Positions 29,900-64,000 of a DNA stretch of 64,000 bases are shown in pieces. Origin of the DNA: Acanthornis magna (Eukaryota > Chordata > Aves > Passeriformes > Acanthizidae); the NCBI GenBank assembly GCA_036785705.1, contig JAWUZG010000982.1, positions 74,501 to 138,500 of the forward strand, read 5' to 3'. A program made the position numbers and the translations under genes. A model generated the notes under the pieces. The model was not told the DNA's origin and ran no database searches. It saw only the letters and a program-made list of their open reading frames with translations. Position 1 is the stretch's first letter, and the number at the start of each line of letters is the position of its first letter.

Positions 29900-34978
<5,079 letters not shown>

Positions 34979-35907: not shown

Positions 35908-36405
35908 ATGTCCTCGGGCCGCGCCGCAGCTCCGTCCCCTCCCCCGGGGGGGCTCCCCGGGCCCCCCCCCCGCCGCCGCCGCCGGGGCCCGGCCCCGCGC
36001 CCCCCCCCGGGTCCCCCCGCCGGGCCCGGCACCAATGACGTGTTCGTGACGTCACGCTCGGATTTCCGGGCGCAGCTGCGGCGCTGCCAGCGGCTCCTGG
36101 CCCCGGGGGGGGGTCCCGGCGGCGGCGGCCCCGCGCCCCCCGGGGAGCTGCGGCTGCACGGGCTGGGCCTGGCCGTGCCCCGCACCATCAACCTGGCGCT
36201 GCAGCTGCAGGCGGGGGCCGGGGGGGCCCTGCGGCTCCACGCCAGCACCTCCTCCGTGCCCCTCAGACCCCCCCGCGGCTCCCGCAGGGCCCCCGCGCGG
36301 GGCGACGGCGACGGCGACGAGGAAGGGGAGGGGGAGGACGGGGACCCCCCCCGGCACAACTCGGCCATTCACATCCGGCTCTGCAGGGAGGCGCCCTGCG
36401 CCTGA
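35908..36405 (+). CDS. POP7: RNase P/MRP subunit POP7 (RPP20)
   Basis: Alba-family subunit of RNase P and RNase MRP that pairs with RPP25 in pre-tRNA and pre-rRNA processing. A single coding exon of 165 residues, as in mammals. Alba-fold blocks: NDVFVTSRSDFRAQLRRCQR, LHGLGLAVPRTINLALQLQA and the terminal NSAIHIRLCR. The N-terminal 45 residues are Pro/Arg-rich, and an acidic insert (DGDGDEEGEGEDGD) precedes the last strand; neither is seen in the human protein as I recall it. It sits directly upstream of EPO, as in mammals. Confidence 0.93.
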   Translation: MSSGRAAAPSPPPGGLPGPPPRRRRRGPAPRPPPGPPAGPGTNDVFVTSRSDFRAQLRRCQRLLAPGGGPGGGGPAPPGELRLHGLGLAVPRTINLALQLQAGAGGALRLHASTSSVPLRPPRGSRRAPARGDGDGDEEGEGEDGDPPRHNSAIHIRLCREAPCA

Positions 36406-36970
36406 GGGGGGCCCGAGGGGTCCCTGGGGGGGTCCCCAAAGTCCTGGGGGGCTCCCCGAGGGCCTTGAGGCCACCCCCAAAGTCTGGGGCATTCCTCGAA
36501 ATGCGGGGGGGCTCCCTCAGGTGCTGGGGGGGCTCCCCAGGTGTCCTGGGCTCGGTCACCTTCGTGGGGACACCCCAAACGCCCCCCCCGGGAGTCCCCC
36601 GGGTCCCTCACGGCTGCAGAAAGTCTTGGGGACATCCCGGGGACACCAAACCCCCCTGGGGCCACCCGTGGGTCGAGACCGCCTTGAACCGAGGCCACCA
36701 CGAGCCATCAAGGACTTGAGGACACTGAGATGCCACCAAGGATTCGAGGCCACCATGAGTCACCGATGGCCTTGGGGACACTGTGACCTGGAGCCACTGA
36801 CGTTTTGGGGACACGGGCGATGCCACCGATGGCTCAAGGCCACCGAGCTGCCACCAGTGGCTCAAGACTGACGTGATCTGGGGCCACCCCTGAGCCCCTC
36901 GATGTCACCCTGAGTCCGCCCCCACAGCGGCCTTGGGGACTTTGGGGGGGACACGGGGATGTGACACCAA

Positions 36971-36976
36971 AATAAA
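36971..36976 (+). terminator. POP7 poly(A) signal AATAAA
   Basis: Canonical hexamer 566 bases after the stop. The 3' UTR (36406-36970) holds loose CACCGATGGC/CCTTGGGGACA repeats. Confidence 0.8.
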
Positions 36977-37499
36977 GTCAGTGGCAGCAGCAGCAGCACC
37001 TCCGGGGATTTTGGGGGGATTTGGGGAGATTTAGGGGTGTTGGGCTGGGGCTTCCTCTGCGTCATTGGTGACATTTGGGGCAGGAAACCCCCAGGTGACA
37101 ATGGGGGACCCAGGGAACGGGAAGGGGGGGGGCCAGGGAGAGGGTCCAGGTGACAACAGTGGGGCCGGGGAGGGGCAGTAGGTGACAAGAAGGGCCCTCA
37201 GGGGGGAAACGTGGGGACTTGGGTGACAAGGCGGGGGGGCAGGTGACACTGGGGACACTTGGACATCCACGGGGGGCTGCAGGGTGGGAAAATGAGGGGG
37301 ACATAGGTGACAAAGGAGCACCCCGCTGGCCAGAGGGACACGCAGGTGACAAGAGGGGACTCCAGGTGACCCGGGGAACTCCCAGGCGTGCAGCCCCTGT
37401 TCCGGGGGAGTCCCGGCGGTGTGGGGGAGTCCCTGTCGGGGGGACACCCCGGTGCCACGGGGGACTCCCAGGTGACGCGGGGGGACCCGGCGGCGTCGG

Positions 37500-39040
37500 T
37501 GACGTCCCTGTCGCCGTCCCCCCGCCCCCGGGTGCCCTTTGGCCCCGCTGGCGCCGGACCCGCGGCCGGGCTGTGCGGAGCCGCACGTACGGCCTGGCAG
37601 GGGGCCCGTGTCACCTCCCGGATCCCCCGTGTCACCTCCCCTGTCACCTGGGTCCCCCGGCTCCCTTCCCGCGTCCCCCGTGTCCGCCGTGTCGTCTCCA
37701 TCCCCTCCCGTGTCCCCCGCATCCCCGTGTCACCTCCTGTGTCACCTGTGTCCCCCTGTCCCCTCCCGTCTCCCCGCGTCCCCTGTGTCCCCCGTGTCCC
37801 CTCCCCTCGGCGTGTCCCCCCTCTCTCCCCCCGTGTCCCTCCCCGCCGCGGGGGTCCCCGGGGCCGCCCCCGGGGCCGCGGTGGCGCTGGGGACGGGGAC
37901 AGTGACGGCGACAGTGACGCTGCCCCATTGTTCGGCCGCTTCCGCCGGCCCGAGGGATCCCGGGATCCCCCGGCCTGGCGCGTCCCCTTGTCACCGCGTG
38001 TGTGTCACCGCGCGCGTGTCACCGCGGTCCCACGGCCCTGCGGGGGTGTCCCCGTGTCCCTGTGCCATCCCGGCGGCCGTGTCCCCTCACCCGCGGCCAC
38101 ATGTCCCCGTGTCTCTGTCCCCACGTTCCCGTCCCGATGTCGCCGTCCCCGCGGTGCATCTCCACACTCACTTTGTCGTTCCCGTGTCCCCTCGTCCCCG
38201 TGTCCCCAGCGTGACGTCCCCGTCCCCCCGCCACTGTCCCCATCCCACACCTCCATGGCCAGGACATTGTCCCCGTGTCCCCCCCATCCCCAGCTCTGTC
38301 CCCCAATCCCTGTCCCCGTGTCCCCCCAACTCCACGTCCCCCTGTCCCCACTTCTGTCCCCCCACCCTCATCCCCGATCCCCCATCTCCATGGTCCCCCA
38401 GGTCTTTGTCCCTGTGTCCCCACCTTGTCCCCTCCTTTCCCCCCATGTCCCCCACGTGTCCCTCCATTCCCACACCTCCGTGCCCAGGTCCCCGTCCCCG
38501 TGTCCCTCCCCTTTTCCCACTCCGTGTCCCCCCCGTGTCCCCCCAAACCTCCATGCCCAGGTCCCCATCCCCATGTCCCCTCTGTGTCATGCCCGTGTCC
38601 CCATCTTTCCCTATCCACGTGTCCCCCCACATGTCCTCCCCTTCCCCCATCCGTGTCCCCTCTGTGTCCCTCCATTCCCACGTCTCCATGCCCAGGTCCC
38701 CATCTCCGTGTCACCCCCGGGTCTTCCCCAGTGTCCCCCCAACGTGTGTCCCCCTTTTCCCCCTCCGTGTCACCCCACTCCCAAACCCCATTCCCCCCCT
38801 CCGTGTCCCCCCCGTGTCCCCCCAAATCTCCATGCCTAGGTCCCCATCCCAATGTCCCCTCCGTGTCACCCCAGTCCCAAACCTCATTCCCCTTCCTCCC
38901 CCGTGTCCCCCCCGTGTCCCCCCCGTGTCCCCCCCGTGTCCCCCCCGTGTCCCCCCATTCCCACCCCTCCGTGCCCAGATCTCCATCCCCGTGTCCCCCC
39001 CGTGTCCTTCCCCCCGTGTCCCCCCCGTGTCCCCCCCGCC
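37500..39040 (+). repeat. GTCCCC minisatellite between POP7 and EPO
   Basis: About 1.5 kb of diverged units like GTCCCCGTGTCCCCC and CCATGCCCAGGTCCCCATCCC. It creates long open frames on both strands with no family resemblance. 36977-37500 is GC-rich with GGTGACA words. No gene is seen. Confidence 0.85.
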
Positions 39041-39291
39041 TGGCCGGCGCCGTGGCCGGGGCCGGGGGTGGCCCGTGGCCAGGGGCCGACGTGCGGCGGC
39101 CGGCGCGGCCTTTTCCTCGACGGTCTGGGGGGGGCGAGGGGGGAGCGGATGGAAAACCCCCCCCCAAGGGCCCTTCCGGCCCCGCGGCCCCTCGGATCAA
39201 ACATTAACCGGGGCCGGGGCCGGGGGACGCGGGACGGGGACGGCCACAGCCCCGGGGCCACCAGGGACCCCCGTGCCATGAGCAGCCGGCG
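39041..39291 (+). promoter_or_regulatory. EPO proximal promoter candidate
   Basis: A CpG-rich non-repetitive block resumes where the minisatellite stops. It holds CCGACGTGCGG, with the HIF core ACGTG at 39089-39093, about 200 bases upstream of the EPO ATG. No clear TATA box is seen. An out-of-frame ATG lies at 39278. Confidence 0.5.
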
Positions 39292-41847
39292 ATGGGGGCG
39301 GCGGGTGAGTGGGGGGGTCCCGGGGGGGTCGCACAGGTGGCGGGGGTGGGGGGACAGCGGACATCCCGGGAGGGGGGGGTGGGAGTGACCCAGGTGTGCG
39401 GGAGGGATCCAGGTGTGCGGGGGAGGGGGGAACACCCACGTGTGCGGCGGGACCGCGCGGGAGGGGTCGCAGGTAACCGGGGGGGACCCGCGTGTCCCCG
39501 GGGGGCTGCGGGGCTCGGGTGGGCTCGGCAGTCCCAGAGTCCCCACGTGTGTCCGGTGCGCTCAGGTGTCCGGCAGGGACACAGGTGGGGAGGGGGTCCC
39601 GCGAGGGCGGGGGGTCCCAAAGGATTCCGGGGTCGCGGGGGGCTCTGGAGGCCACCGGGTGGGCGGGGGGACGCCGAGACCCCGGGGACATTCTCGGGGG
39701 CGGGGCCGCTCGGGTATCGGGGGGGTCCCGGGGGTCTTGAGCCCCCCATCCCCGCGGGGAGGGGTCTCCCCAGAGGTCGCGGTGTCCCCGGTGGGACACG
39801 GCAGTCCCTGACCCCCCCGCCCCCCTCAGGGCTGTGCGCGCTGCTGCTGCTGCTGTTGGGGGTCCCGGGGCGCCCCCAGCCCCCCCCTGAGGGCCCCCCC
39901 TCGCTCTGCGACCCCCGAGTGATCGAACGCTTCATCCTGGAGGCCCGCGACGCCGAGCGGGGGGTGGTGAGAGGGGCTCGGGGACATCGGGGGGGCTCGG
40001 GGACATCGGGGGGGGGCTCGGGGACATCGGGGGGCTCGGGGACATCGGGGGGGGCGTGATGCAGAGTGGGGGCTGGGGCTGGGGGCGGGACCCCCGGAGG
40101 GACTTGGGGACATCGGGAGGGGCTCGGGGACATGGAGGGGGCCACCCTGGGGGTGGTGGGGACATCAGAGAGGGGTTGGGGACACAGGTGGGGGCACAGG
40201 GACACTCGGGGGGTCTCGGGGACCCGCGGGGGTCGTGGCGGGGGTGTCACTGTCACTGTCCCCCCCAGGCCGGCTGTGGCCCCCACTGTGACCTCCCCGA
40301 GCCTGTCGCCGTCCCCGACCCTGGCGTCAACTTCAACCTCTGGCGGAGCCTGGACGTGAGTGGGAATGGGGCGAATTCCCGGGAAATCGGGAAAAGTGGG
40401 GCGGAACTCAGGGAAATGGGGAAAAATGGGGGGAAATACCGGGAAATGGGGTGAAATACAGGGAAATGGGGACAAATGGGGGGAAACGGAGCAGAGTTGG
40501 GGGAAATGGGGGAAACGGGGAATACTTGGGAAAAATGAAGCGGACCGGGGAGAAATTGGGAATAATGGGGCGAAACGTGGGGAAATGAGGCAAAATGGGG
40601 AGAAACATGCCGGAGGAACGTGGAGATACGGGAGAGAAATGGGGCAAAACAGGGAGAAATAGGGAAAAGCAGGGAGAAAGACAGAAAATCGGGGAAATAG
40701 GAAAAACGTGGAGAGAAATAACGAGGAGCCGGGCAAAACGGGGAGAAACCGGGAGAAATTGGGCAAACGGGGCTGAAACTGGGGGGAAATGGGTGGAAAT
40801 GTGGAGGGATGGAGGGAAATGGGATGGAAAGTGGGGAAAACCGGGAAAAAACGGGAAAAACCCCGGGAGAAGGAGGGGACCTGGGCGGGACGGGGATCCC
40901 GGGGGGGGTTGGCGATGCCGGGGTGACCCTGGGGGTGACCCCTGTGTCCCCCCGCTGTCCCCAGGCGGGGTCCCGCGCGCGGGAGGTGGCCGGGGGACAG
41001 GCGGCCCTGGTGGCCGCGGTGCTGCGGGCGCGGGAGCTGCTGCGGGACCCCCGAGTGCGCCCGACCCTCGACCGAGCCTACGGAGCGGCGCGGAGCCTGG
41101 CGCGGCTGCTGCGGGGGCTGCCCGCGCCGGTACGGGGGGTCTGGGGGGATTGGGGGGGGTCCTGGGGGGGTTTGGGGGACCTTTGAGGGGATTTCGGGGG
41201 GTCCTGGGGGGTCTGGGGTCTGTTCCGGCTGCTGCGGGGGCTGCCCGCGCCGGTACGGGGAGTCTGGGGGGATTGGGGGGGTCCTGGGGGGGTCCTGGGG
41301 GGATTTGGGGGGATTTGGGGGGGTTCTGGGGGGGTTTGGGGGAGCTTTGGGGGGATTTCGGGGGGTCCTGGGGGGTCTGGGGTGTGTTCCGGCTGCTGCG
41401 GGGGCTGCCCGCGCCGGTACGGGGGGTCTGGGGGGATTGGGGGGGTCCTGGGGGGGTCCTGGGGGGGTTTGGGGTCAGGAGCGGCAGTTGGGGGGTCCCC
41501 GAGCTGGAACGGGGAGGTCGTGGGGGCGTTTCGGGGGGTCCTAGGGGGAAATGGGAGGAAATGGGGGGGTCTGGGGGGTCTGGGACAGTCATGGGGAGCT
41601 CTGGGGGTCCTTGGGGTGTTTCTGGAGGGTCCGGGGGGTCTCTGCTGTGCTCCGGGCTGGGCTTGGGGGTCCCTGGCGGTTTTGGGGTGCCCCCCTGACC
41701 CCTCCCCTCCTCTCCCCCCAGGGCCCGCCCCCGCCCTCGCCCCCCGCCCCGGTGCGGGTCCGGACCCTCCCCCGGCTCCTGGGGGTCCTGAGCCGCTTCC
41801 TGCGCGGGAAGGTTCGGCTCTTCCTGAGCGACACCTGCCCGCGGTGA
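39292..41847 (+). CDS. EPO: Erythropoietin
   Basis: Secreted four-helix cytokine that drives red-cell production through EPOR. Exons: 39292-39304 (13 nt), 39830-39966, 40269-40355 (87 nt), 40965-41129 and 41722-41847; 528 nt, 175 residues, all in frame. Intron phases and the sizes of exons 1 and 3 match mammalian EPO. Signal peptide: LCALLLLLLGVPGRP. Helix A: LCDPRVIERFILEARDAE, with both receptor-contact Arg (human R10, R14) kept. Then GCGPHC, VPDPGVNFNLW, helix C RSLARLLRGL (human R103 position kept) and helix D LSRFLRGKVRLFLSDTC. Cys 31, 53, 57 and 173 match human C7, C29, C33 and C161. It has no N-x-S/T sequon, against three in human. POP7 upstream gives mammalian synteny. Identity rests on these blocks and the gene structure. 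Confidence 0.92.
40360..40880 (+). repeat. Polypurine GGGAAAT(GGGG) tract in EPO intron 3
   Basis: About 500 bases of nearly pure purine built of diverged GGGGAAATGGGG/GGGAAAAAC units. It resembles the tract in PCOLCE intron 3. Intron 2 (39970-40050) also holds GGGGCTCGGGGACATCGGG repeats. Confidence 0.8.
41090..41480 (+). repeat. Tandem copies of the EPO exon 4 end with donor site
   Basis: CGGCTGCTGCGGGGGCTGCC plus CGCGCCGGTACGGGG occurs at 41102 (real exon end), at about 41226 and at about 41391, each followed by GTCTGGGGGGATTGGGGG. Unit length is about 125 and 165 bases. Each copy keeps the last nine codons of exon 4 and an identical GTACGG donor. Confidence 0.92.
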
Positions 41848-42470
41848 CCGAGCTGTCAATCACCGCTGACAGCTGTCAATCACCGCTGACAGCTGTCAAT
41901 CACTGCCGAGAGCGGACACTCTTAGTCAATCATCATCGCAGCTGTCAATCAACGCAGAGAGCTGCCAATCTCTGCCGGCAGCTGCCAATCATTATGGATA
42001 ACTGTCAATCAGCACCAGCAGCTGTCAGTCATCACAGAGAGCTGTCAGTTATCAGCAGCAGCTGTCAATCATCACCGGCAGCTGCCAATCATCAACAGCT
42101 GCCAATCATGGCAGACAGCCCTCGATCATCAGCACTGACATCACCAACAGCTGCTGTCAATCAACAACACTGACAGCTGTCAATCATCAGAACTGAGAAC
42201 TGTCAATCAACAACACCAACAGCTATCAATCGACAGCAATGTTCAGCTAAAATGACAGCTGTCAATCAGGATCAGCATCAAGAGCGCCGACAGCTGTCAA
42301 TCAACAGCAGTGACAGCTGCCAGTCATCAGCATCAAGAGCACCGACAGCACCCCCCCCCCTCCCCCCGGCACGTTGGACGTGCCGGCAGGTGATTGACAG
42401 CTGTCAATCATCTCCCTCCCGCCTGAGCACCCTGAGCTGCCCAGGCCCCACGGGTGATTGATTGACAGCT
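41848..42470 (+). repeat. CTGTCAATCA array downstream of EPO
   Basis: Perfect CTGTCAATCA (reverse TGATTGACAG, the PBX-MEIS/PREP composite site) starts at 41853, 41873, 41893, 41942, 42002, 42062, 42154, 42177, 42200, 42259, 42294 and 42401. It is inverted at 42391 and 42459. Diverged GCTGCCAATCA copies fill the gaps. It begins right after the EPO stop, so part may be 3' UTR. No AATAAA is seen. Confidence 0.9.
42366..42386. promoter_or_regulatory. Palindromic double HIF core 3' of EPO
   Basis: CCGGCACGT-TGG-ACGTGCCGG is a perfect 9-bp inverted repeat with one ACGTG hypoxia-response core on each strand, 519 bases past the EPO stop. Mammalian EPO is controlled by a 3' hypoxia enhancer with an ACGTG core. 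Equivalence is inferred. Confidence 0.6.
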
Positions 42471-43644
42471 GTCACTCAGGGGAGACAGCGCCCCCGACCC
42501 CCCCCATGTAACTTAATGCAAACAAGAGAATATTTATGAGAGCGCCCGAGGGCTCCTTCGCCCGGGACCCCCAAACCCCCTGGGACCCCCAAACCTTGGG
42601 ACCCCCAAAACCCCTGGGACCCCAAACCCTCTGGGCCCTCCAAACCCCAAATTCTCCAACCCGGGACCCCCAAGCCCTCTGGGACCCCAAACCGTCTGGG
42701 ACCCCAAACCCGGGCCCCCCAAACTCTGAGACTCCCAAATTCCGGGACCCCCAAACCCCAAATCCCCCTAATCCTCGGGACCCCCAAACCCCCTGAGACT
42801 CCCAGATTCCGGGACCCCTCCCAAGCCCCGGGACCCCTCTCAGGACCCCTAAACCCCTGGAGCCGCCCCCGGACCCCCCGGGACCCCCCAGGTCAGTGTC
42901 CCGGCTCGGCCAATGGGCGCCGGGACCTGGCGGCGCCGGGGCGGGGCCCTGGAGGCCACGCCCACCCACGAGAGCACGCCCCATTTGGCCACGCCCACTC
43001 ATCGATAAGCCACGCCCATCTCCCCACCCTGACCACGCCCCTCAATCGAGTCCCCGCCCCTTTTTCGCACCTGGTGGGCGGGGCCAGAGCAGGTCCGGCG
43101 GCCGCGGGTGAGCGGGGCCGGGGGCGGGGGGGGGGAGGCATTTTGGGGTGGTTTTTGGGGATTTCGAGGGTTCGGTGCTGTCCGAGGGGGTTGGGGAGGT
43201 TGGGGGGGGTCACTGTGGGGGGGCTCGGGGGGGTTTTGGGGTCGGGGGGACGCAGGGATTGGGTGGGTGAGGGGCAAAGTCCGGCCGGGGGCAAAGTCTG
43301 TCCTTTGGGGGGGGGGGCGAACTGCAGCCTCTGGAGACCCCCCGGAACCCACCCGAAAAATCCCAAAACACTCCAGGGACCCCTCTGAGACCCCCCAGAA
43401 CCCACCCGAAAAATCCCAAAACACTCCAGGGACCCCTCTGAGACCCTCTGAGACCCCCAGAACCCGCCCGAAAAATCCCAAAACACTCCAGGGACCCCCC
43501 CCGAGCTCCCCCGCAGCCTCTGGGGACATCCCCGGGAGACCCCCAGACCCTCCCAGATTCCCCCAAATCACCCCGGCAGCCTCCTGAGACCCTCGGGGTC
43601 ACGCCCACCGCTCCCAGGTGCCCCCCCCAGGCCCCCCCCCCGCC
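42471..43644. other. EPO-TFR2 intergenic region
   Basis: 42540-42810 is a minisatellite of GGGACCCCCAAACCC units. 42950-43090 is CpG-rich with CCACGCCC words and looks like the TFR2 promoter. 43330-43510 has three 52-59 base units (CCCGAAAAATCCCAAAACAC, CTCCAGGGACCCC). Open frames on the - strand here show no family resemblance. Confidence 0.5.
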
Positions 43645-46600
43645 ATGGAGACCCTCAGGCGCTGCTTCCGCGGACAGGTAAAAGCCCCCCCAAAAAACCC
43701 GGGGGGTCCGGGACCCCCCAAAAGGGCTCCCGATTTCGGGGACGCCCCCAAAACCCCCCCAGACCCCCCGTGACCATCACCGCAGCCCCCCCGGGGGGGT
43801 CCCGTGTCCTACTCGCGGCACAGGGACCCCCGGGGGGGGGGCGAGGAGGAGGAGGAGGAGGAGGAGGAGGAGCCAACCGTGAGGCTGCCCCGCCCCCGGA
43901 CACGCCCCCGGCGCAGACCACGCCCCCGGCCCCGCCCCTGGCTCCACCCCTGGGCCACCCTGGCCCTGGGCTCGGCCACCGCCTTCCTGCTGGGTACGGG
44001 ACCCCCGTGTCCCCCCCTGTCCCCCCGTGTCCCCAAGGGTGCCCCCCCAGTGTCCCCCACTGTCCCCCTCGTGTCCCCCTGTGTCCCCCCGTGTCCCCCA
44101 GTGTCCCCAAGGGTGCCCCCCCAGTGTCCCCCCCGTCCCCCCGTGTCCCCCAGTGTCCTCCCGTGTCCCCCCGTGTCCCCCCGTGTCCCCAAGGGTGCCC
44201 CCCCAGTGTCCCCCCCGTCCCCCCGTGTCCCCCAGTGTCCTCCCGTGTCCCCCCGTGTCCCCCAGTGTCCCCCAGTGTCCCCCAGGGTCTCCCAGTGTCC
44301 CCCCCAGTGTCCCCCTGTGTCCCCCACTGTCCTCCCGTGTCCCCCAGTGTCCCCCCAGGGTCCCCCAGTGTCCCCCTAGGGTCCCCCCCGTGTCCCTCAG
44401 GCCCCACCCACTGCCACAGCCCCGCCTCCCTCCTGACCCCGCCCCCTCTGGCCCCTCCCCCAGGGCTGTTGGTGGCCGGGATTGGCCACGCCCCGTGCGG
44501 GGGCGGGGCGGTGGGGGCGGGGTCTCTCACGGGAGGCTCGGCCCCCGAGGGGATTTGGGGCGGGGCCAGCGCGGAGGCTCCGCCCCCTCGGCCCCGCCTG
44601 CGCGAGCTGCTGCGGCGCCACCTGGTGGAGGAGCGGGTGGAGAACTGGGTGCGGTGAGTGACCACTGACCACTGACCACTGACCACTGACCGCTGACCAC
44701 TGCTGGCCCTGTGTCACCCCCTGTGATCCCCTGTGACCACTGACCACTGACCACTGACCACTGACCGCTGACCACTGACCACTGACCGCTGACCACTGAC
44801 CTCTGCTGGCCCTGTGTGTGACCCCTGCTGTGACCACTGACCACTGACCACTGACCACTGACCACTGACCAGTGCTGGCCCTGTGTGACCCCCTGTGACC
44901 CCTGTGACTCCCTGTGACCCCTGCTGTGACCGCTGACCCCTGCCCCCTGCCCACAGGGAGGTCAGCGCGGGGCCGCACGGGGCGGGGTCAGGGCGTGGCC
45001 GAGCTTTGGCCCAATCAGTGCTCAGCGCCCTGGCGGGGGCGGGGCTGACCCGGGCCTGGAGCCGCCCACAGCCCCTCCCCCTCCCAATCCGGTAAGGGGG
45101 GGACACGGGGGGGTCACGGGGGGGGTCACGGGGGGTCACGGGGGGGTCACGGGAGGTCACGGGAGGGTCACGGGGGTGGGGGTGACCATTCGGGGGGCAC
45201 AGGAGGGGTCACAGAAGGTCAAAGGTCCCTGGGGTCATTGGGGGGGTGGTCAGAGCCTTTTTGTAGGGTGACCCTGACCCCGTGACCTTTGACCCCAGGG
45301 GGGAGGTGACCCTTGGGTGGGCATGGGGAGGGGGGTCAGGCTGACCGCTGTCCTCGTGACCTTTGACCCCAGGGGGGAGGTGACCCTTGGGTGGGCATGG
45401 GGAGGGGGGTCAGGCTGACCGCTGTCCTCGTGACCTTTGACCCCAGGGGGGAGGTGACCCTGCGCTGGGTGGGGCCGGGGGGGGAGGAGCTGGAGCGGCT
45501 CCGCCTCGACCCCGACGCTTTCTGTGCCTGGAGCGCCCCCGGCAACGCCACGGTGAGAGCTGACCCCTGACCCCTGACCCCTGAGCGCTGACCACTGACC
45601 CCCTTGACCACTGACCCCTCCCCTTTGACCACTGACCGCTGACCCCCTTGACCCCTGACCCCTCCCCTCTGACCCCTGACCCCTCCTCTCTGACCCCCTG
45701 ACCCCCTTGATCCCAACCCCGTCCCCTCTGACCCCTGACCCCTGACCCCCGCTGACCCTCGCCGCAGGGGGGGCTGGTCTATGGCCACTACGGCCGCCCC
45801 CAGGACCTGGCCCAGCTCCGCGCCCGGGGGGTCTCGGCCAGGGGGCAGCTGATGCTGCTGCGGCTCGGGAGGGGCAGCCCCGCCCAGAAGGTGAGACCCC
45901 CGAACTGGGGAGAGACCCCAACCCAAAATGAGACCCCAAAATGGGGGCGGGGCGGTGGATTTAGGGTCCCTCTGGTGTCCCCCCCGGTGTCCCCCCCCAG
46001 GTGGCAGCGGCGGCAGGGGCGGGGGCCGTGGGGGTCCTGCTGTACCCAGACCCCCAGGACATGGCCGGGCCCGGGGGGGGCCCAGGGCTGGGGGGGGACA
46101 CGGCCGTGACTGTCCACGTGAGTGGGGGGGGCTGGGGGACATTGGGGGGTCTGGGGGGGATTTGGGGGGTCATGGGGGGCCATGGGGGGGTCCTGGGGGC
46201 CATTGGAGGGTCTGGGGAGGACATGGGGGGGACATCGGGGGGTCCTGGGGGGTCTTGGGGGGACATGGGGGGGTCCTGGGGGCCATTGGGGGGTCTGGGG
46301 GGGACATGGAGGGACATTGGGGGATCTTGGGAGGGTCCTGAGGGGTCTGGGGGGTCCTGGGGGACTTTGGAGGGTCCTGGGGGGGGTCCTGGGGGGTCTT
46401 GGGGGGACATTGGGGGGGGACATAGGGGCCATTGGGGGGTCCTGGGGGTTCCAGGGGTCTGCGGGATAATTTTGGGGGGTCTGGGGGATAATTTTGGGGA
46501 GGGGTCTGGGGGATAATTTTGGGGGGAGGTCTGGGGGATAATTTTGGGAGGTCTGGGGGATAATTTTGGGAGGGTCTGGGGGATAATTTTGGGGGGTCTG

Positions 46601-49600
46601 GGGGATAATTTTGGGGGTCTGTCTGTCCCCACAGGTGCAGGAGGGGGCGGGGGACCCCTTCAGCCGGGGGTTCCCCTCCTTCACAGGCCACGCCCCCCCC
46701 GGAGCCCCCCCGGGGGTGCCCCCAATTCCTGCCCACCCAATCAGCGCCAGCACGGCCATGAAGCTGCTGCGGTACGGGCGGGACCCCTCCCCAAAATCTG
46801 GGACCCCTCCCCAAAATCTGGGACCCCTCCCCAAAATCTGGGACACCTCCTCAAAATCTGGGACCCCTCCCCAAAATCTGGGACCCCTCCCCAAAATCTG
46901 GGACCCCCAATCCGGGACCCCCTGGACCCGGAGCCCCCCCTGACCCGTGTCCCCCTCCCCATTGCAGGGTCCTGCAGGGCCCCCCCGCCCCCCCGCGCTG
47001 GGTGCCCCCCGGGCGGGGTCTGGGGGGGTCCCTGCAGTTCCTGCCCCGCCCGGGGGGGCGACGCCTGCAGCTCAGCGTGGGGGGGGGCACGCGGCCCGGG
47101 ACCCTCACCAGCGTTTTCGGGGCCCTGCGGGGGCGGCTCGAGCCCGGTGAGGGGCGGGGCCAAGCGGGGCGGGGCCAAGCAGGGCGTGGTCAATCCGGGC
47201 GTGGCCAATTCGGGTGTGGACAATTTGGGCGTGGTCAATCGGGGTGTGGACACCTGGGCTGTGTCCAAATTGGGCGTGGTCAATCGGGGTGTGGCCGAAG
47301 TGGGTGTGGCCTGGATGCTAAGGGGGTGTGGTCAGTATGGGTGGAGCCTGAAGGGGGCGTGGTCACAGTGGGTGTGGTCAGGAAAATGGGTGTGGTCACG
47401 TGAAGGGGCGGGGTCAGAGGAGGGCGGGGTAATGGGAATGATGAATCGGAGGGGGCGTGGCTAAATTTGGTGTGGTCGGAGTGGGCGTGGCCAATGCGGG
47501 GTCATTGTGGGGGCGTGGCCAAAATGGGTGGGGCAAGAAATGGGTGGGGCCAATTGGGTGGAGATGTGGCCGGGGCGGGGCCATGGCGGGGTGGGTGTGG
47601 CCGGATGGGCGTGGCCTCCCCATGACGCCGGCCCCGCCCAGACTGTTACGTCATCGTGGGGGCGCAACGTGATTCGCTGGGGCCGGGGGCGGCAGCCTCG
47701 GGCGTGGGCACCGCCCTCCTGCTGGAGCTCGCGCGGTTCTTCGCCGCCATTGGCCGAGAGGGTGAGGGCGGGGCCGGGGCGGGGTTGGGGGGGTCTTTGG
47801 GGGTCCCATTTTGGGGGGGGTCACGGGGGGAGGGGAGGTCCTTGGATTTCCGGGGTGTTCCCTGACCTTTGGGTGACCCCAACAATTGGGGGGGGGTGTC
47901 TCTCCCACCCCTGGGTGACCCCTGGGTGACCCCTGAGTGAACCCTGAGTGACCCCTGAGTGACCCCTGGATGACCCCTGAGTGACCCCTGAGTGACCCCC
48001 CGAGTGACCCCCGGGTGACCCCTGAGTGACCCCTGAGTGACCCCTGAGTGACCCCTGCCCCCCCAGGGTTCCACCTCCGCCGGACGCTGCTCTTCGTCAG
48101 CTGGGACGGGGCCGAGTTTGGACACTTGGGTGCCACCGAGTGGCTCGAGGTGACCCCGCGACCCCACCCCCCCCCCCGCGGTCACCCCGGGGTCACCTCA
48201 GTGACCCCCCCCAGTGACCCCCCCAGTGACCCCCCCAGTGACCCCCCCCCGCCCCCCCAGGGCTACCCCGACCTCCTGCACACCAAAGTCGCTGCTTACA
48301 TCAGCCTGGACCGCGCCGTGCTGGGTGCGCCCCTCCCCCACCCCCCGGACCCCGGGCTGAGGAGGGGGCTCGCCCCTCCCCCACCGCCCCCGACCCCCCC
48401 TGACCCCCCCCTTTCCCCTCCCCCACCCCAGGGGCAGATCGGTTCGTGGTCAGAACCAGCGCCACTTTGGTGAATCTGATCGAGAGCGCCCTGGAGCAGG
48501 TGGGGGAGGGGCGGGGGGTGGGGTGGGGGAGGGGCGGGGTGTGGGGGAGGGGCCGCCCCCTCTCACCCCCTCCCCGAAAAAAAGGTGGAGAGTCCAAACG
48601 AGGGCGGGAAGAGCCTCCTGGAGCAGCTGACGAGGCCGGGGCGGGGCTGGGAGAGTGACGTGTGAGTTGGGGACACCTGGGGACACCTGGGGACACCTGT
48701 GTCACCCACCCTGGATACCTGGGGACACCTGTGTCACCCACCCGGGACACCTGTGTCACCCACTTGGGACACCTGGGGACACCTGTGTCGCCCACCCTGG
48801 ATACCTGGGGACACCTGGGGACACCTGGGGACACCTGTGTCACCCACCCTGGATACCTGGGGACACCTGTGTCACCCACCCGGGGCACCTGGGGACACCT
48901 GGGGACACCTGTGTTACACACACCTGTGTCCCTGTGCCCCCCCGTGTCCCCCCCGTGTCCCCCCCGTGTCCCCGCAGGATCCGTCCCTTGTCCCCCGACT
49001 CTGGCGCCTTTCCCTTCACGGCAGCCGCGGGGGTCCCAGCGCTGGAGCTTGGCTTTGATGAGGTCTGAGTGTCCCCAAGGGTCCCCAAGTGTCCCCAAGG
49101 GTCCCCAAGGGTCCCTGTACCCCCCCTGTGTCCCTCTGTCCCTGTCCTCGGCTGTGTCCCCATGTCCTGACTGTGTCCCCCGATATCCCCTGTCCTTCTG
49201 TCCCCGTGTCCCCTCCCTGACCGTGTCCCTGTCCTTCTGTCCCCATGTCCCCTCCCCGACCATGTCGCTGTCCCTCTGTCCCCGTGTCCCCTCCCCGACC
49301 GTGTTCCTGTCCCTCTGTCCCCGTGTCCCCTCGCTGACCATGTCCCTGTCCCTGTCCCCATTTCCCCCCATGTCCCCTGTCCCCGTGTCCCCTCCCTGAC
49401 CGTGTCGCTGTCCCCGCAGGCCCTGGGCGGTGGCTCCCGCGCGGCCCTGGGGACCCCCGAGGACACCCTGGGCCGCCTGGGGGGGCGGCTGCGGGGGCGG
49501 CTGCCCGCGGTGGCTCGCGCGGTGGCCGCGGTGGCCGCGCAGCTCCTGCTGCGCCTGGGCCACGACCCCCGACTGCCGCTGGACCCCGGAGCCCTCGGGG

Positions 49601-51752
49601 ACGCGCTGGTGCGGCAGCTGGCCCCGCTGCAGGTCAGACCAGTATGGACCAGTATGAACCAGTATAGACCAGTATAGACCAGTATGGACCCAGTATGGCA
49701 CTGGGAGGGGACACTGGGGGGACACGGGACCCCGAAGCCCTCGGGGACGCACTGGTGCGGCAGCTGGCCCCGCTGCAGGTCAGACCAGTATAAACCAGTA
49801 TGAACCAGTATAGACCAGTATGGAACCAGTATGGAACCAGTATGGCACTGGGAGGGGACACTGGGGGGACACGGGACCCCGAAGCCCTCGGGGACACGGT
49901 GGTGCGGCAGCTGGTCCCGCTGCAGGTCAGACCAGTATAGACCAGTATGAACCAGTATAGACCAGTATAGACCAGTGTAGACCAGTATAAACCAGTACAG
50001 ACCAGTTATAGACCAGTATAAACCAGTATGAAACAGTATAAACCGGGAGGGCACTGGGGGACACAGGGAGGGGACATGGGACCCTGGAGCTCTTGGGGAC
50101 GCGCTGGTGCGGCAGCTGGCCCCGCTGCAGGTCAGACCAGTATAAACCAGTATAAACCAGTATAGACCAGTATGAACCAGTATAGACCAGTATAAACCAG
50201 TATAAACCGGTATGGCACTGGGAGGGCACTGGGGGACACTGGGGTGACACTGAGGGGGGTCACTTCTGTCCCACCCGGTGTCCCCCTGCGTCATCCCAGT
50301 CCATCCCAGTCCCTCCCAGTACAGCCCAGTTCAGCCCAGTCTGTCCCGCGCAGGCGCGGGGGCTGTCCCTGCAGTGCCTGTCCTCGGCCAGGGGGGGCGT
50401 GGTGCGCGCGGCGGCGTCGCTCCGTCGCGACATGTCGCGATCCGACAGCTCCAACGAGCGCCTCAACCGCGGCTTCAACGCGCGCCTCATGGCCGTGAGT
50501 GTCCCTCCCTGTCCCCTCCCTGTCCCCGTGTCCCCTCCCTGTCCCCTCCCTGTCCCCGTGTCCCCTCCCTGTGCCTCCCTGTCACTGCCCTCTGTCCCCT
50601 CCCTGTCCCTGTGTCCCCTCCCTGTCCCCTCCCTGTGCTCATGGCCGTGAGTGTCCCTCCCTGTCCCCTCCCTGTCCCCTCCCTGTCCCGTGTCCCCTCC
50701 CTGTCCCCGTGACCCCGCCCTGTCCCCTCCCTGTGCCTCCCTGTCACTGCCCTGTGTCCCCTCCTTGTCCCCGTGTCCCCGCCCTGTCCCCGCCCTGTCC
50801 CCTCCCTGTCCCCTCCCTGTCCCCTCCCTGTCCCCGTGTCCCCTCCCTGTCCCCTCCCTGTCCCCTCCCTGTGCCTCCCTGTCACTGCCCTGTGTCCCCT
50901 CCCTGTCCCTGTGTCCTCCCCCTGTGTCCCCTTCTGTGCATGTCCCCTGCATGTCCCCTCCCTGTCCCGTGTCCCCTCCCTGTCCCTGTGTCCCCTCCCT
51001 GTGCCCCTGTGTCCCCTCCTGTCCCTGTCACCTGCATGTCCCTTCCTGTCCCCTCCTGTCCCCTCCTGTCCCTGTCCCGTGTCCCCTCCTGTCCCCTCCC
51101 TGTCCCCCTGACCGTGTCCCCTCCTGTCCCTGTCACCTGCATGTCCCCGTGTCCCCTCCGTCACTGCCCTGTGTCCCCTCCCTGTCCCTGTGTCCTCCCC
51201 CCGTGTCCCCTCCTGTCCCCTCCTGTCCCCTCCCCGTCCCCCTGACCGTGTCCCCTCCTGTCCCCTCAGGCCGAGGCGTCGCTGCTGTCCCCGTTCGTGT
51301 CCCCCCTTGTCACCCCCTTCCGCCACGTCCTGCTGGGCCGCGGGGACCACACGCTGCCGGCGCTGGTGGCCGAGCTGGGGACACCGGGGACACGCGGGGA
51401 CAGCGCCCGCCGGCGCCTGGCGCTGCTGGCCTGGACCCTGCGCGGCACGGCCGTGGCGCTGGCCGGGGACAGCTGGGACCGCGGGGACCTCGGGGACAGG
51501 GGTGGCCTTGGGGACAATGGGGACTGCGGGGACATGGGTGGGGTTGGGGACGTTGGGGACCATGGGGACATTGGGGAGCACGGGGGCGTTGGGGACTTTG
51601 GGGACAGGGAGGACTACGGGGACAGCTGGGGTGGCCTTGGGGACCTCGGGGACCGTGGGGACACCTGGGATTCTGGGGACACCTGGGAGCGTGGTGGCCC
51701 TGGGGACGAGGGGAATCCTGGGGACCCTCGGGATTGGGGTGGCCTTTGGTGA
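43645..51752 (+). CDS. TFR2: Transferrin receptor 2
   Basis: Type II membrane sensor of holo-transferrin that tunes hepcidin and binds EPOR. Exons read: 43645-43677, 43786-43993, 44464-44653, 44957-45091, 45447-45552, 45767-45890, 46001-46117, 46635-46771, 46968-47146, 47642-47761, 48067-48149, 48261-48324, 48432-48499, 48585-48661, 48978-49062, 49420-49632, 50354-50494 and 51270-51752. A short cytosolic tail with an acidic run and Arg/Pro stretch precedes a membrane segment across exons 2-3. Protease-associated domain: [38 protein letters not shown]. Peptidase-like domain: [40 protein letters not shown] and EWLEGYP. Dimerisation part: [20 protein letters not shown] and [20 protein letters not shown]. 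Exon 6 starts with one extra G for the frame. The C-terminus runs on into a Gly-Asp repeat tail instead of ending at the family GDVWN-type end. Confidence 0.95.
43995..44400 (+). repeat. GTGTCCCCC minisatellite in TFR2 intron 2
   Basis: Diverged units CCCCCGTGTCCCCCAGTGTCC and AAGGGTGCCCCCCCAGTGTC. Includes a near-perfect 90-base duplication (44105-44195 against 44195-44265). Confidence 0.85.
44655..44950 (+). repeat. TGACCACTGACC minisatellite in TFR2 intron 3
   Basis: Runs of CACTGACCACTGACC, interspersed with TGCTGGCCCTGTGTGACC, in three higher-order blocks. Confidence 0.9.
45290..45460 (+). repeat. Triplicated acceptor and 5' end of TFR2 exon 5
   Basis: GTGACCTTTGACCCCAG followed by GGGGGAGGTGACCCT occurs three times (exon-like starts at about 45299, 45373 and 45447), with 73-74 base units. 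Only the last copy continues into the full exon ([12 protein letters not shown]). Confidence 0.9.
46120..46630 (+). repeat. G-rich minisatellite in TFR2 intron 7
   Basis: GGGGGGTCCTGGGG and GGGGGACATGGGG units, then GGGGGATAATTTTGGGG about seven times. Strong G-quadruplex-like composition. Confidence 0.85.
46780..46915 (+). repeat. 20-bp repeat in TFR2 intron 8
   Basis: GGGACCCCTCCCCAAAATCT about six times, starting just after the exon donor. Confidence 0.92.
47150..47640 (+). repeat. GGGCGTGGCCAAT-type array in TFR2 intron 9
   Basis: Diverged 15-20 base units such as GGGCGTGGTCAATCGGGGTG and GGGGCGGGGCCAAGC. It belongs to the same GC-box word family as NYAP1 20037-20232 and 35120-35260. 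Confidence 0.8.
47925..48060 (+). repeat. GTGACCCCTGA repeat in TFR2 intron 10
   Basis: About a dozen 11-base units (TGACCCCTGAG) just upstream of the acceptor of the exon at 48067. Confidence 0.9.
48660..48925 (+). repeat. GGGGACACCTGTGTCACCCACC repeat in TFR2 intron 14
   Basis: Units of GGGGACACCTGTGTCACCCA (10-38 bases). They start immediately at the donor of exon 48585-48661. Confidence 0.9.
49585..50225 (+). repeat. Copies of the TFR2 exon 16 end plus AACCAGTATAG repeat
   Basis: The exon end [11 protein letters not shown] with its CAGGTCAGACC donor (ending 49632) recurs at about 49735-49780, 49878-49925 and 50090-50130. Each copy is followed by ACCAGTATAGACCAGTATGA units. Four junction copies in all. 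Confidence 0.92.
50500..51265 (+). repeat. CCTCCCTGTCCCC minisatellite in TFR2 intron 17
   Basis: About 750 bases of 10-13 base units CCCTCCCTGTCCC and CCGTGTCCCC, with higher-order copies that include GCTCATGGCCGTGAGTG, the end and donor of the preceding exon, at about 50640. Confidence 0.9.
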
Positions 51753-52175
51753 CACCTGGAGCCGTGGGGACACTGGGGACACTGGGGACACCTGGGGACA
51801 GTGGGGACACCTGGGGACAGTGGGGACACATGGGGACAATGGGGACACTGGGACACCTGGGGACACATGGGGACAATGGGGACACCTGGGGACACTGGGG
51901 ACACCTGGGGACAGTGGGGACACCTGGGGACAGTGGGGACACATGGGGACAATGGGGACACTGGGACACCTGGGGACACATGGGGACAATGGGGACACCT
52001 GGGGACACTGGGGACACCTGGGGACAATGGGGACATGTGGGGGCAATGGGAACACGTGGGGACAATGGGGACACCTGGGGACAATGGGAACACCTGGGGA
52101 CATGTGGGGACAATGGGAACACCTGGGGACAATGGGGACATGTGGGGACACTGGGACAAAAGGGACCTTGGTGGT
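51470..52175 (+). repeat. GGGGACA-type minisatellite spanning the TFR2 C-terminus and 3' UTR
   Basis: The first part (51465-51752) is in frame and codes for G-D-rich residues. The rest is 3' UTR with GGGGACACCTGGGGACAATG units. The repeat runs through the stop codon. Confidence 0.85.
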
Positions 52176-52257
52176 GGCCTCGGGGACATGGCCCCGCCCC
52201 CTCATTGGCATCAGCTGCGTTTATTGGCTCCGCCCCAGAATTGGGGACAGGATGGGA

Positions 52258-52263
52258 CAATAA
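52258..52263 (+). terminator. TFR2 poly(A) signal AATAAA
   Basis: Canonical hexamer about 500 bases past the stop, after the minisatellite. Confidence 0.8.
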
Positions 52264-52439
52264 AAGCGCCGGGGGGCCCTGCCCACCCGGCCCCGCCCAT
52301 CTGACCACGCCCAGTTTGACCACACCCAGTTTGACCACACCCACTCTGTAGTTGGCCACGCCCATTGGTAGCCATGTCCTCATGCTGGTCCTCCGCCCCT
52401 GGGGCCCTCCCATCCAGGCCACGCCCATCAGGCCATTGG

Positions 52440-52800
52440 GTGGAGCCATCTTGGAATGGCAGCCATATTGGAATGGTGGCCATATTGGAATGGCAGCCAT
52501 ATTGGAATGGCAGCCATCTTGGAATGGCAGCCATCTTGGAATGGCAGCCATCTTGGAATGGTGGCCATCTTGGAATGGCGGCCATATTGGGACAGTGGCC
52601 ATATTGGATTGGCAGCCATATTGTCCTGGCAGCCATATTGGAAGAGTGGCCATGTTGGAATGGCAGCCATATTGGAACAGTAGCCATATTGTCCTGGCAG
52701 CTACATTGTCCTGGCAGCCATATTGGAATGGGAGCCATATTGTCCTGGCAGCCATATTGGAATGGGAGCCATCTTGTCCTGGCAGCCATCTTGCTCCCCC
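52440..52800 (+). repeat. GGAATGGCAGCCATATT array (YY1-like words)
   Basis: About twenty 17-18 base units, GGAATGGCAGCCATCTT or ...CCATATT. Each holds GCCATCTT or GCCATATT, close to the reverse YY1 consensus GCCGCCATCTT. It lies between the TFR2 poly(A) site and the EPHB4 end. 52264-52440 holds CCACGCCCA words. Confidence 0.85.
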
Positions 52801-52864
52801 ATCCAGCTGAGTCCCTCAGTGCCGTCCCTGGCGGCCATCTTGCGTGGCAGGGCCGGGGGCAGTG

Positions 52865-64000
<11,136 letters not shown>

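Follow-up and report, generated by a model that had tools for sequence, protein, structure and literature searches.

The erythropoietin locus of the songbird Acanthornis magna: gene structure, a candidate hypoxia element and exon-end copies in intron 4

Erythropoietin (EPO) is the hormone that drives red-cell production, and it was long thought to be missing from birds, whose red-cell formation was assumed to do without it. In mammals it is encoded by five coding exons, the first of which is only 13 nt long, with introns in phases 1-0-0-0. Its three N-glycosylation sites are a mammalian feature and do not define the family. Chicken EPO and its receptor, EPOR, were reported for the first time by Hron et al. 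(2015; PMC4539667). As excerpted, that paper also assembled GC-rich EPO orthologues from several birds and described POP7 as the neighbour of EPO in vertebrate genomes; its avian sequences are at the cDNA level, with little flanking DNA. The finding is repeated in excerpts of later papers (PMC5913325, PMC12954441).

Two further bodies of work bear on this locus. Hypoxia response elements (HREs) of mammalian EPO have been placed 3′ of the gene, in its promoter and, farther away, in a distal region on the 5′ side (PMC9338912, excerpted text). On the dot chromosomes of chicken, a 'sequence stuttering' was described in 2026 (PMC12954441): exon stuttering is scored above a threshold of 42.1 bits, 190 of the 236 chicken introns concerned lie on dot microchromosomes, and local expansions are mentioned in some other birds as well. 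In the text of that paper 'EPO' occurs once, in the introduction.

We analysed a window of 64,000 nt from Acanthornis magna (contig JAWUZG010000982.1, positions 74,501 to 138,500). It contains the whole EPO locus including introns and flanks, whereas the avian sequences of 2015 extend very little beyond the coding regions. The gene is the same as that known from chicken and other birds since 2015 and from Corvus, Sylvia and Zonotrichia entries, with the same extreme GC content and the same POP7 neighbour, and its protein shows no difference of substance. The initial annotation of this DNA had put the difficulty of finding EPO in bird assemblies down to extreme GC, which is correct and already published (Hron et al., 2015; PMC4539667, excerpts). 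The gene has been known since then, and that annotation correctly describes one more songbird copy of it, to which the window adds regulatory and intron details.

Gene model and identity of the encoded cytokine

A complete EPO gene of five exons and 175 residues had been proposed at 39292..41847, and we confirm both the coordinates and the intact frame. The exons are as follows.

39292..39304, + strand: coding exon 1, 13 nt, with the start codon and the donor GTGAGT
39830..39966, + strand: exon 2, 137 nt, with the remaining signal peptide, the first cysteine and helix A
40269..40355, + strand: exon 3, 87 nt, with two close cysteines and the AB loop
40965..41129, + strand: exon 4, 165 nt, with helices B and C by alignment
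41722..41847, + strand: exon 5, 126 nt including the stop, with the proline-rich CD loop, helix D and the last cysteine

Spliced together, they form a coding sequence of 528 nt with zero internal stops. All four introns have GT-AG borders, and the phases following exons 1 to 4 are 1, 0, 0 and 0; the 13-nt first exon, the 87-nt third exon and the mammalian intron phases that had been claimed are all present. The introns measure 525, 302, 609 and 592 nt, consist of 43-53% G and carry 4, 6, 5 and 8 simple G-quadruplex patterns, respectively, on the sense strand. Tandem repeats lie inside the introns and flank the gene on either side, in agreement with the G-rich introns and minisatellites described earlier. 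The GC content reaches 78.6% in the coding sequence (GC3, 92.6%) and 71.0% over the locus. An ATG located 14 nt upstream of the EPO start, in a different frame and within the presumed first exon (39278-39304), could open a small upstream reading frame.

The annotation had suggested a Pfam profile search of the spliced exons as a check. This search identified EPO_TPO (PF00758) with an E-value of 3.2e-30 (105.8 bits; cut-off 25), the sole family among those with E up to 10. Such an E-value rules out a reading frame that is open by chance, as do the gene model and the relatives given below.

One Pfam family covers both EPO and thrombopoietin (TPO), so the match by itself also suits a gene for TPO or another helical cytokine. 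Indeed, TPO chains were recovered in a search of solved structures, where five of them scored 31-34 bits; the two EPO chains scored 103 and 97 bits. A better match to TPO than to EPO had been named as evidence that would speak against the annotation, and what we found is the reverse, with EPO about 70 bits above TPO. For the Corvus protein (96% identical to the window protein), an AlphaFold model (19-row alignment; mean pLDDT 84.5) gave the same order when compared with the PDB by Foldseek: EPO occupied ranks 1-3 (E 1.8e-10 to 7.7e-9) and TPO ranks 4-11 (E 3.2e-7 to 7.2e-5). Through this model, the four-helix cytokine fold is predicted for the window protein. TPO has a long tail, whereas the window protein stops two residues past its last cysteine. 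The names of the relatives and the synteny with POP7 also argue against TPO. We consider TPO and other cytokines ruled out by the Pfam, solved-structure and Foldseek scores, and such an identity is barely conceivable.

A search of 5.8 billion proteins, which depends on shared exact words, returned 34 relatives (27 bird-named, four from turtles, two from fishes and one unnamed). The bird-named rows comprise 26 named erythropoietin, from 22 species, and a Zosterops row named hypothetical protein; several species contribute multiple rows, and certain rows are incomplete or contain intron read-through. The closest of the 34 are bird proteins. The EPO of Corvus moneduloides is 94% identical to the window protein by BLASTP over the full length and 96% identical in the multiple alignment. 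The absence of chicken EPO from the 34 says little, given this dependence on exact words. We built a tree from the window protein and 17 of the 34 rows. It places the window protein with seven songbird rows at a support of 99/98, and most of its inner branches lack resolution (4 of 15 starred). We take the genera of these seven rows to be passerines. The description of the gene as avian-type is borne out by this grouping and by the predominance of bird-named relatives.

We are therefore close to certain that the best explanation is a passerine EPO gene, whose five exons encode a secreted cytokine with four helices. To judge from its sequence, the protein would be secreted, bind EPOR and promote red-cell production, and the gene would presumably be induced by low oxygen through HIF.

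Conserved residues and N-glycosylation

In the alignment with the solved human chain, residues 31, 53, 57 and 173 of the window protein correspond to the cysteines C7, C29, C33 and C161; the four cysteines claimed by the annotation are thus in place, with their bonds predicted, and its helix A (RVIERFILEA) and helix D (RFLRGKVRLFL) motifs are both present. Compared with human EPO (1buy, 1eer, 1cn4), 65 of 147 residues aligned to 1buy are identical. V11, R14, R103, S104, L108, R110, F148, R150, G151 and K152 are kept, whereas Y15F, T44P, K45G, S100G and N147R are changed; we assume that all of these positions have roles in receptor binding. T44 and K45 belong to the AB loop, which is otherwise similar to that of human EPO, and N147 belongs to helix D.

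The window protein also differs from human EPO in having no N-glycosylation sequon. N-x-S/T is absent from the window protein, from all 27 bird-named rows (some of them partial) and from the unnamed row. The sequon NLS occurs in all four turtle rows, one of which has a second site in apparent intron read-through, and sequons occur in one of the two fish rows. Human EPO has three N-glycosylation sites (PMC4405594). Xenopus laevis EPO, far less similar in sequence (38% to human by report), likewise has none and is active on the human receptor (PMC4405594; PMC4628722, both as excerpted). In view of the Xenopus protein, the absence of sequons is not unique to birds, and it is consistent across the bird rows compared here. 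The pattern could reflect either a loss of sites in birds or a gain in turtles. No paper on the glycosylation of avian EPO was found among open-licence PMC papers.

Neighbouring genes and a candidate hypoxia element

Three genes were recognized close to EPO.

30591..34537, - strand: pieces of an actin-like 6 type gene, upstream of POP7; best solved relative ACTL6A
35908..36405, + strand: POP7 (RNase P/MRP subunit p20), intact ORF, upstream neighbour
54454..61028, - strand: pieces of an EPHB-type receptor tyrosine kinase gene, downstream neighbour

The POP7 ORF matches the Pfam family Rpp20 (1.1e-7) and solved p20 (74 bits). Its end and the start codon of EPO are 2,886 nt (2.9 kb) apart, and the claim that EPO lies directly downstream of POP7 therefore stands. 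By position, we take the actin-like 6 type gene to be ACTL6B and the EPHB-type gene to be EPHB4; the Eph piece searched scored 92-95 bits to each of EPHB1-4 and thus has no power to separate them. Farther upstream of the actin-like 6 gene lie pieces with Pfam matches to methyltransferase, ArfGap, LRR, CUB and FHA, which by eye we take to fit MEPCE, AGFG2, LRCH4, PCOLCE and a KIF1-type kinesin. In its gene order the neighbourhood presumably resembles the EPO region of human 7q22. Two short pieces with no convincing Pfam match lie between EPO and the Eph-type kinase (43.1-54 kb); they are coding-like, on the + strand, at 48419 and 49576 (within 43100-54000). Rfam gave zero matches in the window at gathering thresholds. 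A tRNA-Ser called by ARAGORN within the actin-like 6 gene (31404-31482, - strand) is probably false, as no Rfam tRNA reaches the gathering threshold.

The interval between POP7 and EPO contains two adjacent candidate sites.

37571..37589, - strand: candidate hypoxia response element TACGTG-N8-CACAG, 1.7 kb before the EPO start codon
37533..37545, - strand: DR1-type nuclear-receptor site GGGCCAAAGGGCA, beside the candidate element; presumably HNF4-type by consensus

We selected the element once 71 RCGTG sites in 36400-54000 had been scanned, of which only those with ACGTG near the start or with CACAG nearby were reported. Among 1000 block-shuffled windows, 6 contained TACGTG-N8-CACAG; ACGTG-N8-CACAG is expected 0.04 times per window (4 in 100 shuffles). 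The looser RCGTG-N8-CACAG often arises by chance, in 208 of 1000 shuffles, but none of 1000 shuffled windows combined it with a DR1 within 100 bp. The window has slightly more DR1-like sites with at most one mismatch than expected (13 against 7.4; 4 of 100 shuffles yielded 13 or more). Of the exact DR1 sites, three out of four belong to a 74-nt minisatellite at 45265-45461, present in three copies, whose unit contains GGGTCAAAGGTCA.

For comparison we used a 31-nt core and a 46-nt stretch of the mouse Epo 3′ enhancer, as given in excerpts of PMC12274846. The candidate matches the core at 24 of 31 positions, the highest value anywhere in the window. No shuffled window out of 300 reached this value, and shuffled cores reached at least 24 in 2 of 500 and 4 of 500 cases. 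Against the 46-nt stretch it matches 29 positions, equal to an unrelated site at 2579; this tie indicates that the DR2 part of the mouse enhancer is not kept. The candidate thus shares with the mouse 3′ enhancer TACGTG, the 8-nt spacer and a GCCCGGC context, but it lies upstream and antisense, with a DR1 nearby instead of a matched DR2. As mammalian HREs also occur 5′ of the gene, an upstream site in a bird EPO is not odd.

It is quite possible that the module at 37533-37589 matches by chance amid GC-rich minisatellites: it was picked from many RCGTG sites, its looser form is frequent in shuffled windows, it ties with the site at 2579 and a few shuffled cores score as high. The rarity of the exact pattern, the combination with a DR1, the best-placed match to the mouse core and the position between POP7 and EPO point the other way. 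On balance we lean towards a real element on these sequence patterns. If so, the candidate HIF-binding module (TACGTG-N8-CACAG with the DR1) between POP7 and EPO could mediate hypoxic induction. No paper on a hypoxia enhancer of avian EPO was found among open-licence PMC papers, and the excerpts of PMC4628722 contain none.

Exon-end copies, the 3′ flank and implications

Intron 4 contains two extra exact copies of the final 27 nt of exon 4 together with its splice donor.

41226..41281, + strand: extra copy 1, 56 nt (27 nt of exon 4 end, donor and intron bases), one mismatch
41390..41445, + strand: extra copy 2, the same 56-nt exon 4-end stretch, no mismatch

Each copy scored 54 bits by BLASTn-short, compared with a maximum of 28.2 bits in 200 shuffled-intron sets and the 42.1 bits used for chicken. 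The arrangement fits the exon stuttering of chicken dot chromosomes, in that part of a coding exon and its splice site are repeated in the adjacent intron; it differs in affecting a passerine EPO gene, with two extra copies only. The EPO introns appear to be expanding through local repeats, and the exon-end copies would supply intron 4 with two decoy splice donors, at 41253 and 41417. By computation, use of these donors would add a stop and yield a protein of 152 residues without helix D. Alternatively, the copies may be an assembly error.

The invasion of intron 4 by exon-end copies could also be taken as a sign that this EPO copy is decaying or not expressed, its frame being open by chance in GC-rich DNA where stop codons are scarce. 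Yet the five-exon frame and all four GT-AG borders are intact, and the protein keeps 94-96% identity to Corvus EPO. Chance would not preserve such identity, so chance openness is unlikely and a decaying copy is very improbable. We retain an intact passerine EPO gene as the explanation.

Repeated coding sequence is also found in the Eph-type gene (57195-58720, - strand). The last 89 nt of a 135-nt coding stretch at 58586-58720 occur in four further copies that are 100, 100, 97.8 and 97.8% identical, a pattern that likewise fits exon stuttering. Elsewhere, at 54514-55033, a 69-nt tandem array of about eight copies has a unit that includes Eph-type kinase coding sequence (VINAIEQDY).

The 3′ flank of EPO begins with a repeat.

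41851..42468, no strand assigned: 3′ minisatellite directly past the EPO stop, a 20-nt-based array with 14 exact TGATTGACAG

The window holds 15 occurrences of this motif, 14 of them in the minisatellite (41853-42468), against 0.03 expected; we take the motif to equal the PBX-MEIS/PREP consensus. The annotated zebra finch protein P0007 ends in RAVNHHR, which resembles the minisatellite unit, and the array may therefore be shared between zebra finch and the window. On the + strand of 36300-46000 the only AATAAA, at 36971, follows POP7; the rest of that stretch, including the part past the EPO stop (41848-46000), contains neither AATAAA nor ATTAAA.

Because the EPO gene itself was known, the value of this locus is that of a test bed and not of a discovery. 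With a complete songbird locus, hypoxia control through the upstream candidate element can be asked about. So can the questions whether unglycosylated EPO is the norm in birds and whether intron stuttering alters splicing, for example in high-altitude songbirds. A reading that joins these points would have an oxygen-sensing enhancer upstream and antisense rather than 3′, an EPO without N-linked sugars, and decoy donors planted by stuttering that lead to a 152-residue form without helix D. We regard this combination as speculative and rather unlikely as a whole. If it were true, individual birds could differ in EPO dose and isoform according to repeat length.
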